The notes under the pieces are model-generated. The model searched no databases and was not told where the DNA came from. It saw nothing but the letters and a program-made list of their open reading frames with translations. Below are positions 2,764 to 16,995 of a stretch of 20,549 nt of DNA, piece by piece; the first letter of the stretch is position 1, and each line of letters opens with the position of its first letter. The stretch is from positions 1 to 20,549 of IMG/VR virus record IMGVR_UViG_3300019487_000111, one strand, 5' to 3'. A program made the translations under genes and the position numbers. This DNA comes from a virus.

Positions 2764-3002
2764 GCCTCGAACGCAAGGACGTTCGGGCATCGCTGGACGC
2801 GGATCTGCACGCCGCACTCAAGGAAATATGTGATCTCGACGGGGTGACAACCGCCGAGTTCATCGAGGCGCTGCTGACTCCGGTCCTGCGCAAGCGCATC
2901 CACGACACGATTGAACTTTCCGAGCGGCTCCGGCGCATCGGAATTTCCCGGAACGGCCGGGATAACACGGCAGATCAACCGCTTAACGGCGAGCGGCGCT
3001 GA
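2760..3002 (+). CDS. Small ribbon-helix-helix-like protein
   Basis: An 80-aa protein coupled to the Cro-like gene by ATGA, and to the initiator gene by TGATG. KDVRASLDADLHAALKEICD (residues 6-25) followed by a TTAEFIEALLTPVLRKRI helix resembles the strand-helix-helix layout of Arc/MetJ-type regulators. The C-terminal 30 residues are basic and probably disordered. Its place corresponds to cII or similar middle regulators in lambdoid phages. No homology can be claimed from the sequence alone, so the family call is inference. Confidence 0.65.
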   Translation: MSLERKDVRASLDADLHAALKEICDLDGVTTAEFIEALLTPVLRKRIHDTIELSERLRRIGISRNGRDNTADQPLNGERR

Positions 3003-3808
3003 TGGCTCGCATCCGCACGATCAAGCCGGAGTTCCCGCAAAGCGAGTCCATGGGGCGGGTCTCGAGAGAGTCGCGACTGCTTTTTATCCAGCTCTGGACC
3101 ATTTGCGACGACTCGGGAATCACTCGCGGGTCTTCGCGAATCCTCGCGAGTCTTCTCTACCCGTATGACGCAGATGCCTTTGAACGCATCGACGAATGGC
3201 TGAACGAACTTGAACGTGAAGAATGCGTCGTGCGCTATGTCATTGACGGGTCTACGTATTTACAGGTGCTTACCTGGAAGGCCCACCAGAAGATCGACAA
3301 GCCCACACCATCGAAACTCCCCCAATTCGAGGAAAGCTCGCGACTTGTCGCGAATCCTCGCGAGGAAGTAGCGAGCCCTCGTGGTGGGATTGGAATGGAA
3401 GGGAAGGGAGTAGACCAGGAAGGGAAAGGACCTGTATTGGCGCTCACGCGCCATGCACAACTCGCTCCATCCCGTAAAAACGGGACCAGCGAAGAGCCAC
3501 CAGAATTCGCCGAACTGCAAGCCGCCTATCCGAAACGCAGCGGCGGACAGCGCTGGCCGGATGCGCTGACAGCCTGCCGCAAACACGTCGCTGTCGGCGC
3601 CACTTGGCAGCAATTGATCGACGCGGCCAAACGCTACGCGCTGTTCCTTGAGGCAACCGGCAAGAGCGGCACCGAGTACGTGCAACAGGCGGCGACGTTT
3701 TACGGCCGCGGTGCCGGTTGGCGCGAAGCTTGGGTAGTCAATCTGCGACCGCACGCCAAAACAGTTGACGAGCTCGAAGCCGAGGAGCGCGCGCGTGTTC
3801 GCAGTTGA
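3002..3808 (+). CDS. Phage replication initiator (O/DnaD-like)
   Basis: A 268-aa protein beginning MARIRTIKPEFPQSESMGRV, the opening of a widespread phage replication protein family with an N-terminal winged helix. RESRLLFIQLWTICDDSGI and the ILASLLYPYDADAFERI stretch (about residues 20-65) form that domain. A variable, serine/proline/glycine-rich linker (about 112-165) follows, then a C-terminal segment with EFAELQAAYPKRSGG and a helical domain, presumably for helicase or loader contact. The linker and part of the winged-helix coding DNA carry phased TCGCGA repeats. Lambda O likewise has its origin inside its own gene. The start is fixed by TGATG coupling. Role: origin recognition and replisome assembly, by family knowledge. 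Confidence 0.8.
   Translation: MARIRTIKPEFPQSESMGRVSRESRLLFIQLWTICDDSGITRGSSRILASLLYPYDADAFERIDEWLNELEREECVVRYVIDGSTYLQVLTWKAHQKIDKPTPSKLPQFEESSRLVANPREEVASPRGGIGMEGKGVDQEGKGPVLALTRHAQLAPSRKNGTSEEPPEFAELQAAYPKRSGGQRWPDALTACRKHVAVGATWQQLIDAAKRYALFLEATGKSGTEYVQQAATFYGRGAGWREAWVVNLRPHAKTVDELEAEERARVRS
3103..3149. repeat. Phased TCGCGA repeat cluster 1 (candidate origin iterons)
   Basis: Hexamers related to TCGCGA begin at 3103 (TTGCGA), 3113 (TCGGGA), 3124 (TCGCGG), 3134 and 3144 (both exact), that is every 10 or 11 bp. The 17-mer TCGCGAATCCTCGCGAG at 3134-3150 recurs exactly in cluster 2 but in a different reading frame. This argues for selection on DNA rather than protein. Confidence 0.5.
3338..3384. 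repeat. Phased TCGCGA repeat cluster 2 (candidate origin iterons)
   Basis: Exact TCGCGA sites start at 3338, 3348 and 3358, followed by TAGCGA (3369) and TCGTGG (3379), again at 10-11 bp. Because 10 is not a multiple of three, the copies fall in all three frames. The second 17-mer copy is at 3348-3364. A purine-rich tract and two hairpins follow. Confidence 0.5.
3383..3485. other. Purine-rich tract and two hairpins beside the repeats
   Basis: Bases 3383-3430 are almost all G and A on the plus strand. Two perfect inverted repeats follow: TGGCGC/GCGCCA with loop TCAC (3438-3453) and TCCCGT/ACGGGA with loop AAAA (3470-3485). Iterons, a strand-biased tract and a palindrome together resemble the layout of the lambda origin, although this tract is GA-rich rather than AT-rich. 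All of it is inside the initiator coding region. Confidence 0.35.
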
Positions 3809-4265
3809 CCGCCCTGAATTCGAGCGCCAGGTGGCCATGCTGTGTGCGGCTTACAACGTGCCGGCTGGGGAGCGCGGCGAGGCGTACTGGAACGCTTTCA
3901 ACCGGCTCGGTCTGATCGAATTCGCGCGCATGGTCGCGCACATCATCGGCCCCGAGGGACCGGACAAGCTGCCGACTGTCCCGCAGCTGTGGAAGATCCG
4001 CAAGGAACTGGGCAAGGCCAATCAAGCGCAGGGCAAGCCGGGCACCCAAGACTTGCTCACTGCGGTGGTCGAAACGGCACTCAGGAAATGGCAGCTATCC
4101 GAGTTGCAGATTCGCCAGACCTGGAACTGGATCGCGCGGGATCCAGGAGGTCCTGACTGCAACATGCTCGGCGTGATCATTCCACAGGATCCGATGGACC
4201 CGGTGCGATTTCCGGCGCATCGGCTGATGGTTTCTGAACTGACGCAGGAGAAGAGGCGGGTGTGA
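3795..4265 (+). CDS. Replication accessory protein, possible helicase loader
   Basis: A 156-aa protein starting at GTG 3795, with GAGGAG 7 nt upstream, overlapping the initiator stop by 14 nt. A TTG at 3765 is in frame but has no such site. The first 75 residues (FERQVAMLCAAYNVP, then YWNAFNRLGLIEFARMV) are helical, ending in LPTVPQLWKIRKEL. That plan recalls small phage helicase loaders of the G39P/lambda P type, where helices pack before an 'FPP..EI'-like motif. The C-terminal half (WQLSELQIRQTWNWIARDPG) is also helical, with no Walker motif. Position directly after an O-like initiator is where a loader is expected. This is inference from position and fold pattern; the protein could be another replication accessory. 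Confidence 0.65.
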   Translation: MFAVDRPEFERQVAMLCAAYNVPAGERGEAYWNAFNRLGLIEFARMVAHIIGPEGPDKLPTVPQLWKIRKELGKANQAQGKPGTQDLLTAVVETALRKWQLSELQIRQTWNWIARDPGGPDCNMLGVIIPQDPMDPVRFPAHRLMVSELTQEKRRV

Positions 4266-4756
4266 CTGAGATGCGTACCACGACATCGACAGATCGGGGC
4301 GCGCGCGGCGCGGCATCTCCGGTTACGTTCGCGCTCACATTGCCATGGCCGCCAAGTGTCAATCACTACTGGGCCAATCGGGTGATACCAGCCAAGCACG
4401 GTCCACGCCGGTTCATCGTCATGACGTATTTGGCCGATGCGGGGCGCGAATATCGGGTCAGAGTATCGGAAGCGATCATGGCGCAGCGCATTCCCAGGCG
4501 TGTGCTTACCGGCCGACTCGCGATTAAGGTGCTGGCGCATCCGCCCGACTGGCGCACCCGCGATCTCGATAATTTGTGGAAGGGATTGCTCGATTCGTTG
4601 AAGCACGCCGACGTGATCGAGGATGACGGCCACTTCGATGATTTGCGCATCCGCCGCGGCAAGGTCATGCCTGGTGGCAAAGTGATGGTGGATCTGTCTG
4701 AGATTCCGGGCGAGCCGATGAAATCCGGCGATCTGCTGAAACAGGGCTCGCTATGA
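4262..4756 (+). CDS. rusA: RusA-type Holliday junction resolvase
   Basis: A 164-aa RusA family endonuclease, which cuts four-way junctions as a metal-dependent dimer and helps resolve branched phage DNA before packaging. The N-terminal FALTLPWPPSVNHYW (residues 23-37) is the family opening. The catalytic core is TRDLDNLWKGLLDSL (99-113) with Asp101 and Asp103, followed by ADVIEDDGHFDDL with Asp121/Asp122; this matches the conserved acidic set. The GTG at 4262 overlaps the upstream stop (GTGA) and has AGAGG 5 nt upstream; an ATG at 4271 is the alternative. The extra 20 N-terminal residues before the core are longer than in E. coli RusA. Confidence 0.92.
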   Translation: MTEMRTTTSTDRGARGAASPVTFALTLPWPPSVNHYWANRVIPAKHGPRRFIVMTYLADAGREYRVRVSEAIMAQRIPRRVLTGRLAIKVLAHPPDWRTRDLDNLWKGLLDSLKHADVIEDDGHFDDLRIRRGKVMPGGKVMVDLSEIPGEPMKSGDLLKQGSL

Positions 4757-16471: not shown

Positions 16472-16995
16472 GCGATTTTCGTCTTGAGCAGTGGTTCGAC
16501 GAGGACTGGATCATTCAGGCTGGTGCCGGGGTCACGATTCAGGTGCCGGTCGCCGATCTGGTGCTCGCAGGCTTCGCGCCAACTGTGCGCACGCCGCGCA
16601 CCATCCAGGTTCCGCTCGCGACCCTGACGCTGACTGGATTCGCGCCATCGGTTGTGGTCGGCATCAACATTCAGGTGCCACTCGCGACTCTGACCTTGCA
16701 AGGCTTTGCGCCGGTGGTGCTCACTCCGCGCGTCGTGCAGGTGCCAGCAGGCGTGCTGCCGCTGCTCGGCTTCGCGCCGACGGTGTTGACTCCGCGGACC
16801 ATCCAGGTTCCGCTCGCGACCCTGACGCTGACTGGATTCGCGCCCGCGGTCGTCATCGGCCAGAACGTCGTGATCCAGGTGCCGGTAGGTATTCTGACCC
16901 TGCAAGGCTTCGCGCCAGATGTGGTGGTCAGCGGTGCACCTGCAGCAAATGACGAGGAATGGATCATACGTGCGCGTCGCCGCCGGCAACGCTGA
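16468..16995 (+). CDS. Tandem 22-residue repeat protein
   Basis: A 175-aa protein made almost wholly of six tandem repeats from residue about 22 to 158. The consensus is IQVPLATLTLTGFAP followed by a variable VVxTPR or VVVGI linker. Each unit is mostly beta and hydrophobic with a fixed GFAP turn. The N-terminus (FRLEQWFDEDWIIQAG) and the C-terminus (NDEEWIIRARRRRQR) share a WI motif, and the basic tail may bind nucleic acid or a partner. A 47-bp stretch is identical between repeats 2 and 5, showing recent duplication or gene conversion. Similar 'LTLTGFAPT' repeats occur in phage proteins of unknown role. It could be a fibre-like or surface protein. Confidence 0.75.
   Translation: MSDFRLEQWFDEDWIIQAGAGVTIQVPVADLVLAGFAPTVRTPRTIQVPLATLTLTGFAPSVVVGINIQVPLATLTLQGFAPVVLTPRVVQVPAGVLPLLGFAPTVLTPRTIQVPLATLTLTGFAPAVVIGQNVVIQVPVGILTLQGFAPDVVVSGAPAANDEEWIIRARRRRQR
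16600..16646 (+). repeat. 47-bp direct repeat, copy 1
   Basis: Identical to 16798-16844, 198 bp downstream (66 codons, three 22-residue units). It encodes TIQVPLATLTLTGFAP in frame. Identity at the silent positions points to recent duplication rather than protein-level conservation alone. Confidence 0.9.
16798..16844 (+). repeat. 47-bp direct repeat, copy 2
   Basis: The second identical copy, in repeat unit 5 of the tandem-repeat protein. The two copies could recombine to delete or add three units without shifting the frame. Confidence 0.9.

Follow-up and report, generated by a model that had tools for sequence, protein, structure and literature searches.

The two clusters of phased repeats in the initiator gene of this virus genome are probably (at a probability of about 0.86) the iteron arrays of a phage replication origin that lies inside the gene for its own initiator, with both binding and origin activity predicted from sequence. 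As our computations show, the arrays themselves are real, are under selection at the DNA level, and characterize this initiator family. The repeating unit is a short dyad, TCG-(0 or 1 base)-CGA, which occurs once per helical turn, i.e., every 10 or 11 bp. Very probably, these TCG-CGA arrays are the sites where the encoded initiator would bind to start copying of the genome. The best reading of the comparative evidence is that an intragenic, lambda-type origin would be the rule across the superfamily rather than a local oddity.

Both arrays lie on the coding (+) strand of the initiator gene (positions 3002-3808), which encodes a protein of 268 amino acids. Array I (3103-3149, + strand) falls within the region encoding the winged-helix domain and comprises five phased units: TTGCGA (3103-3108), TCGGGA (3113-3118), TCGCGG (3124-3129), and two exact TCGCGA (3134-3139 and 3144-3149), with spacings of 10, 11, 10, and 10 bp. 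Array II (3338-3384, + strand) lies at the start of the linker and also has five phased units, three of them exact: TCGCGA at 3338, 3348, and 3358, TAGCGA at 3369, and TCGTGG at 3379, spaced by 10, 10, 11, and 10 bp. Across the two arrays, 5/10 hexamers are exact, 4/10 have one mismatch, and 1/10 (TCGTGG) has two. An exact 17-mer, TCGCGAATCCTCGCGAG, is shared by the arrays, at 3134-3150 and 3348-3364 (both + strand), and has no third site in the 20,549-base record. The gene offsets of the two copies are 132 and 346, so they are read in different frames (0 and +1, respectively). A preliminary description of this DNA had reported the two clusters of about five hexamers with their 10- to 11-bp phase, as well as the 17-mer common to both in different frames, and its coordinates and sequence proved correct on each count.

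This degree of phasing was well outside what shuffled sequences produced. Exact phased TCGCGA pairs number three in the window, by which we mean the whole 20,549-nucleotide stretch analyzed; when the window was shuffled 1000 times with its dinucleotides preserved, the mean count was 0.036 and the highest was 1. No phased pairs occur elsewhere in the window beyond the initiator-gene arrays. The counts for the initiator gene are six hexamers and three phased, vs means of 0.80 and 0.04 under synonymous-codon shuffling; none of 5000 such shuffles matched the observed hexamer or phased count. The window also contains a tandem repeat of ∼66 bp (4.2 copies, 16570-16844) in a late-region ORF, where it encodes a repeated IQVPLATLTLTGFAP-type peptide.

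According to the preliminary description, the case for an origin would fail if close relatives that share the protein had lost the repeats. We found that the repeats persist. All six close relatives found by protein alone carry TCGCGA units in both regions, one of them (L007) with just one exact TCGCGA per region. A wider protein search, from whose 80 best matches we took 74 distinct genes, gave array I in 70/74, array II in 70/74, and both in 66/74. The arrays survive across proteins that are ∼25% identical and have unrelated linkers and C-terminal domains, and phased TCGCGA is present in 21 of 80 genes from prophages that reside in the genomes of cellular organisms from several phyla. The usual layout in the family is one array in the winged-helix coding region and another in the linker, and where two exact hexamers lie within 60 bp of each other, their separation is almost always 10 to 11 bp or a multiple thereof. 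The codon position of array I differs by clade (about 38-52 or 57-72), and so no single protein feature accounts for it. Some members, i.e., those of F10, Bordetella, and Tyrion, have only weak or different repeats.

Codon usage within array I also points to selection on DNA. In 73 aligned relatives, S45 is encoded by TCG in 69/69 cases (vs 38% elsewhere in the same genes), R46 by CGA in 69/72 (vs 18%), L48 by CTC in 72/73 (vs 30%), and A49 by GCG in 70/70 (vs 31%), while CTT is used for L41 in 40/41 and for L51 in 65/70 (vs 14%). Among 32 less similar sequences, the frequency of identical codons is 0.75 at codons 38-52 and 0.43 outside; kinship inflates both measures, with the contrast confined to the array, where the synonymous codons are locked. 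Autocorrelation of the gene DNA, compared with codon-shuffled nulls, peaks at lags of 10, 11, 20, 21, and 22, with no peak at 9 or 12. The effect is found in genes with TCGCGA (n = 26), in genes with TCGNCGA only (n = 35), and in genes with neither motif (n = 37); in the last group, the helical periodicity gives a paired Wilcoxon value of 6.5e-9, uncorrected for kinship. Some subfamilies appear to have repeats of their own, read by eye from single genomes and thus weaker evidence: TTGCGCC in Charlie, GTGCGCCGACA in SoilAssassin, CTCNNGAG in Che8, and GATCACCGAAC in SOVA965.

Blind DNA scans lead back to the same family. We searched 2.9 million viral contigs for three TCGCGA at a fixed spacing, with no protein used as a reference, and asked of each locus whether the match falls inside an ORF that fits the family HMM. 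Among the matches listed, 106/119 loci at 10-bp spacing and 107/120 loci at 11-bp spacing lie inside a family gene (the true locus numbers are at least 119 and at least 120, respectively). At 9 bp, there are just 17 loci in the whole collection, and 0/17 are in the family. The blind scans therefore reach the initiator family ∼88 to 89% of the time, at helical spacing only. Together with the persistence of the arrays in relatives, this supports the origin first proposed in the preliminary description, for which we infer both binding and activity.

The scans also allowed the motif to be generalized. TCGNCGA at 11 bp is often found in relatives without TCGCGA, including those from Streptomyces, Pseudomonas, Herbaspirillum, Roseospira, and Planctomycetota. 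From these relatives we predicted that TCGNCGA would lead to the same family and then tested this by blind scan: three TCGNCGA at 11 bp gave 105/120 loci in the family vs 1/120 at 12 bp, such that one extra base pair abolishes the family association. TGCGCC at 11 bp, taken from SoilAssassin and Charlie, was tried as a widespread third iteron and found no support, with 2/99 loci in the family. The motif thus generalizes to TCG(N)CGA only, and the TGCGCC scan doubles as a control: the initiator family is not generally rich in GC-rich hexamers spaced by 11 bp. This generalization, the superfamily-wide occurrence, and the purine tract discussed below all go beyond the preliminary description.

What are the 26 TCGCGA loci that fall outside the family HMM? 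At least one (L016) is a truncated family member. In four others (L047, L119, L206, and L242), the three TCGCGA at 10 or 11 bp lie within genes of other families that PHROGs also class as replication initiation proteins (phrog_2562, 9474, and 1032), which suggests iterons that are shared between, or convergent in, different initiator families. Separately, L170 (2951-3040) and L189 (8147-8236) each have a short region of phased TCGCGA units that lies in noncoding DNA or a small ORF and not in any initiator gene that we found; these regions are possibly an intergenic origin or operator.

Natural domain swaps connect the repeats to one part of the protein. Butters and Charlie are ∼90% alike in their C-terminal halves and ∼28% alike over the first 120 columns of the alignment; at a spacing of 11 bp, Butters carries TCGCGA arrays and Charlie TTGCGCC-like repeats. 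Likewise, the C-terminal parts of Kita and SoilAssassin are ∼75% alike, and their winged-helix regions ∼25%. In both swaps, the iterons switch together with the winged-helix domain, not with the C terminus, and in both pairs the binding domain is never found with the repeats of the other type. This joint exchange is in part physical linkage, since the arrays lie in or beside the DNA for the winged-helix domain. On a tree of the N-terminal domain, iteron class is clustered, with 37 changes vs 58.7 in shuffles, and has switched several times. These swaps are natural cases in which a binding site and its predicted reader changed together.

The protein encoded by this gene matches the PHROG replication initiation families phrog_1408, phrog_2149, and phrog_16167 (E values of 3.7e-30, 3.8e-30, and 1.4e-27), and the matches span its N-terminal domain. 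No Pfam or NCBIfam model matched the 268-amino-acid sequence, and a PDB sequence search returned no homologue. Its layout consists of an N-terminal domain modeled as a winged helix (amino acids 1-118), a disordered linker (∼119-160), and a helical C-terminal domain (∼163-245); AlphaFold2 gives both domains high confidence and the linker low confidence. Winged-helix proteins top the list of PDB fold matches with weak E values (best, 0.08), so the fold is named from its topology and from numerous weak matches. In a viral library, the matches were strong, and the matched proteins are called replisome organizer or replication protein. The C-terminal domains of relatives vary and include DnaT and Phg_2220_C.

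The neighboring genes add some context. The next gene in the operon (3795-4265, + strand, ∼156 amino acids) is a candidate helicase-loading partner by position only; its product had no Pfam, PHROG, or NCBIfam match, and its structure model was too poor for identification as a helicase loader on structural grounds. In phage Che8, the gene after the initiator is annotated as a helicase loader. Farther downstream is a RusA-like Holliday junction resolvase (4262-4756, + strand; Pfam RusA, E 4.5e-11; phrog_34, E 7.3e-38). Upstream of the initiator, positions 2488-2763 encode a YdaS-type HTH protein, likely a Cro- or CII-like regulator.

Directly after array II lies a purine-rich tract (3388-3430, + strand, i.e., the coding strand) with 86% purine and 51% GC, a candidate opening region. 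Most relatives likewise have tandem purine tracts past array II. In close relatives, these consist of GGATCAA heptamers or GGAAGGG, and GGAAGGG repeats also come after TCGNCGA arrays. The mycobacterium and Gordonia phages have GGGGAACA octamers; among these phages are Che8, Charlie, and ClubL, in which TCGCGA arrays are absent. The most purine-rich stretch starts a median of 12 to 13 nt past the last TCGCGA, and the tracts repeat with periods of 7 and 8, neither a multiple of codon length. The purine content is just modestly above the codon-shuffled expectation, which makes the tract less secure than the arrays. An AT-rich opening region next to array II was considered and rejected: the 60 nt after array II average 53% GC in relatives vs a gene mean of 58%, and the lowest-GC stretch sits elsewhere. 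The linker DNA of relatives such as L294 and L273 has GGATCAA/GGATCT tandem heptamers or hexamers that contain GATC and resemble the Dam-site heptamers in the origin of plasmid P1. Since GGACCAA or GGAAGGG takes their place in many relatives, a requirement for GATC itself is unlikely.

How might these elements work together? The winged-helix domain would bind the TCG(N)CGA dyads, with protomers aligned on one face of the DNA at both arrays. The nucleoprotein complex so formed, in which arrays ∼200 bp apart may be brought together, would strain and open the adjacent purine tract, and the interchangeable C-terminal domain would then bring in the helicase or its loader. The full scheme of one-protomer-per-turn recognition, in which winged helices polymerize along TCG(N)CGA arrays, the arrays loop, and the GA-rich tandem tract opens, is a tentative proposal, somewhat on the doubtful side. 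Distances between arrays I and II peak near 181-184, 191-195, 202-207, and 215-217 bp, and in L154, L346, and others they group at steps of ∼10.5 to 11 bp; this is suggestive of spacing quantized by about one turn, as would fit looping, and is confounded by the choice of exact units and by kinship. GC skew has no clear switch near 3.1-3.4 kb, and no exact DnaA box (TTWTNCACA) lies near the gene, the window having two reverse-strand matches, at 1134 and 13147.

It is worth considering what else the arrays might be. They may be operators, through which the initiator or another regulator would control the replication operon, with the origin located elsewhere. Early genes can contain binding-site arrays with a regulatory role, and what the sequences show is selection for protein-binding-like DNA, whichever process it serves. 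However, the arrays lie ∼100 to 390 nt into the coding region rather than at a promoter, the purine tract is usually next to them, and the precedents of lambda and SPP1 put origins, not operators, inside the initiator gene (PMC5043065; PMC6316719). We therefore regard operators in place of an origin as unlikely; the arrays could also serve autoregulation in addition to origin function. It is more improbable still that the repeats are sites for other factors, such as a methyltransferase, SSB, or nucleoid proteins, or are recombination hot spots that promote domain shuffling. The swap junctions do lie near the linker, and several relatives have a methyltransferase gene a short way upstream of the initiator, but in most of the relatives seen none lies near the gene, the iterons change along with the winged-helix domain, and one-turn phasing and recurrence across hosts of several phyla point to the initiator. 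The relatives with an upstream DNA methyltransferase gene are PFR1, Fishburne, Kita, ReT1v-1, and Pitbull (L346, L349, L351, L357, and L362), and methylation control of the origin is conceivable. Finally, protein-level constraint or codon bias, by which repeated peptides (SR..LA.PRE) would be encoded by similar codons, can be ruled out for practical purposes, as the preliminary description had argued for protein constraint: the short peptides encoded by arrays I and II are indeed alike, but the array units are read in all three frames, codon shuffles remove the signal, rare codons such as CGA at R46 (69/72 vs 18% elsewhere) are fixed at array I, and the frame-keeping spacings of 9 and 12 bp gave 0/17 and 1/120 loci in the family vs 105 to 107 of 119 to 120 at 10 to 11 bp.

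An origin within the initiator gene would have consequences well beyond this genome. The origins of most temperate phages are unmapped, among them those of the many phages of mycobacterium and Gordonia in which these genes are found, and the occurrence of TCG(N)CGA once per helical turn in the initiator gene offers a directly testable origin position in several hundred sequenced phages and prophages. Protein-coding sequence here carries a second code. If true, the reading of one protomer per turn would represent a distinct origin architecture in phages of several bacterial phyla. Among open-licence papers, we found no report of these arrays, and we found no binding or replication experiment on any family member.

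Among characterized systems, phage initiator genes suffice for replication in mycobacteria, as described by Wetzel in 2020 for the RepA-type origins of Miko, Rachaly, and Jeeves (PMC7157519). In the case of Miko, repA together with the 171 bp before it is enough; the authors suspected that an origin lies within repA or immediately upstream, and they found no repeated motifs in the region examined near the initiators (PMC7157519). Miko RepA is a different type of initiator, without the arrays and without the N-terminal signature of the family, and we rejected it as a family member. TubR, a winged-helix protein that binds tandem short iterons, is among the PDB fold matches of the initiator; it is a partition protein, and the match is weak (E 0.24). 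The initiators of iteron plasmids are of the Rep_3 type, and the initiator here had no Pfam match to the Rep_3 domain. These plasmids (P1, RK2, R6K, and pSC101) resemble the present system in having direct iterons in helical phase (PMC5043065). However, their iterons are longer and lie outside the initiator gene, with an AT-rich opening region and DnaA sites.

The putative origin would work in the manner of two intragenic phage origins, SPP1 oriL and lambda ori. In SPP1, oriL has initiator-bound direct repeats inside the initiator gene 38 (PMC6316719), much as the repeats here lie within the initiator gene and are predicted to be bound by its product. SPP1 differs from this system in having an opening region that is AT-rich and in having another origin, oriR, at a different place; we detected no sequence relationship of the initiator to SPP1. 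The iterons of lambda are 19-bp inverted repeats, each bound by an O dimer, whereas here a 6- to 7-bp dyad recurs every 10 to 11 bp, with a second array inside the coding sequence of the DNA-binding domain. The lambda iterons adjoin a 40-bp AT-rich region, whereas the tract here is GA rich, and the initiator has no homology to lambda O (no Phage_rep_O Pfam match). With no homology, no 19-bp iterons, and no AT-rich region, this system falls outside the lambda O family. In layout, lambda O likewise combines a winged or HTH-type N-terminal domain with a partner-binding C-terminal domain. As in lambda, where ori lies in gene O, the putative origin is inside the initiator gene and has multiple iterons (PMC5043065). 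The melted region of lambda is nearly all purines on one strand (PMC5043065), and strand-asymmetric purines stand beside the iterons here as well, with 86% purine at 3388-3430.
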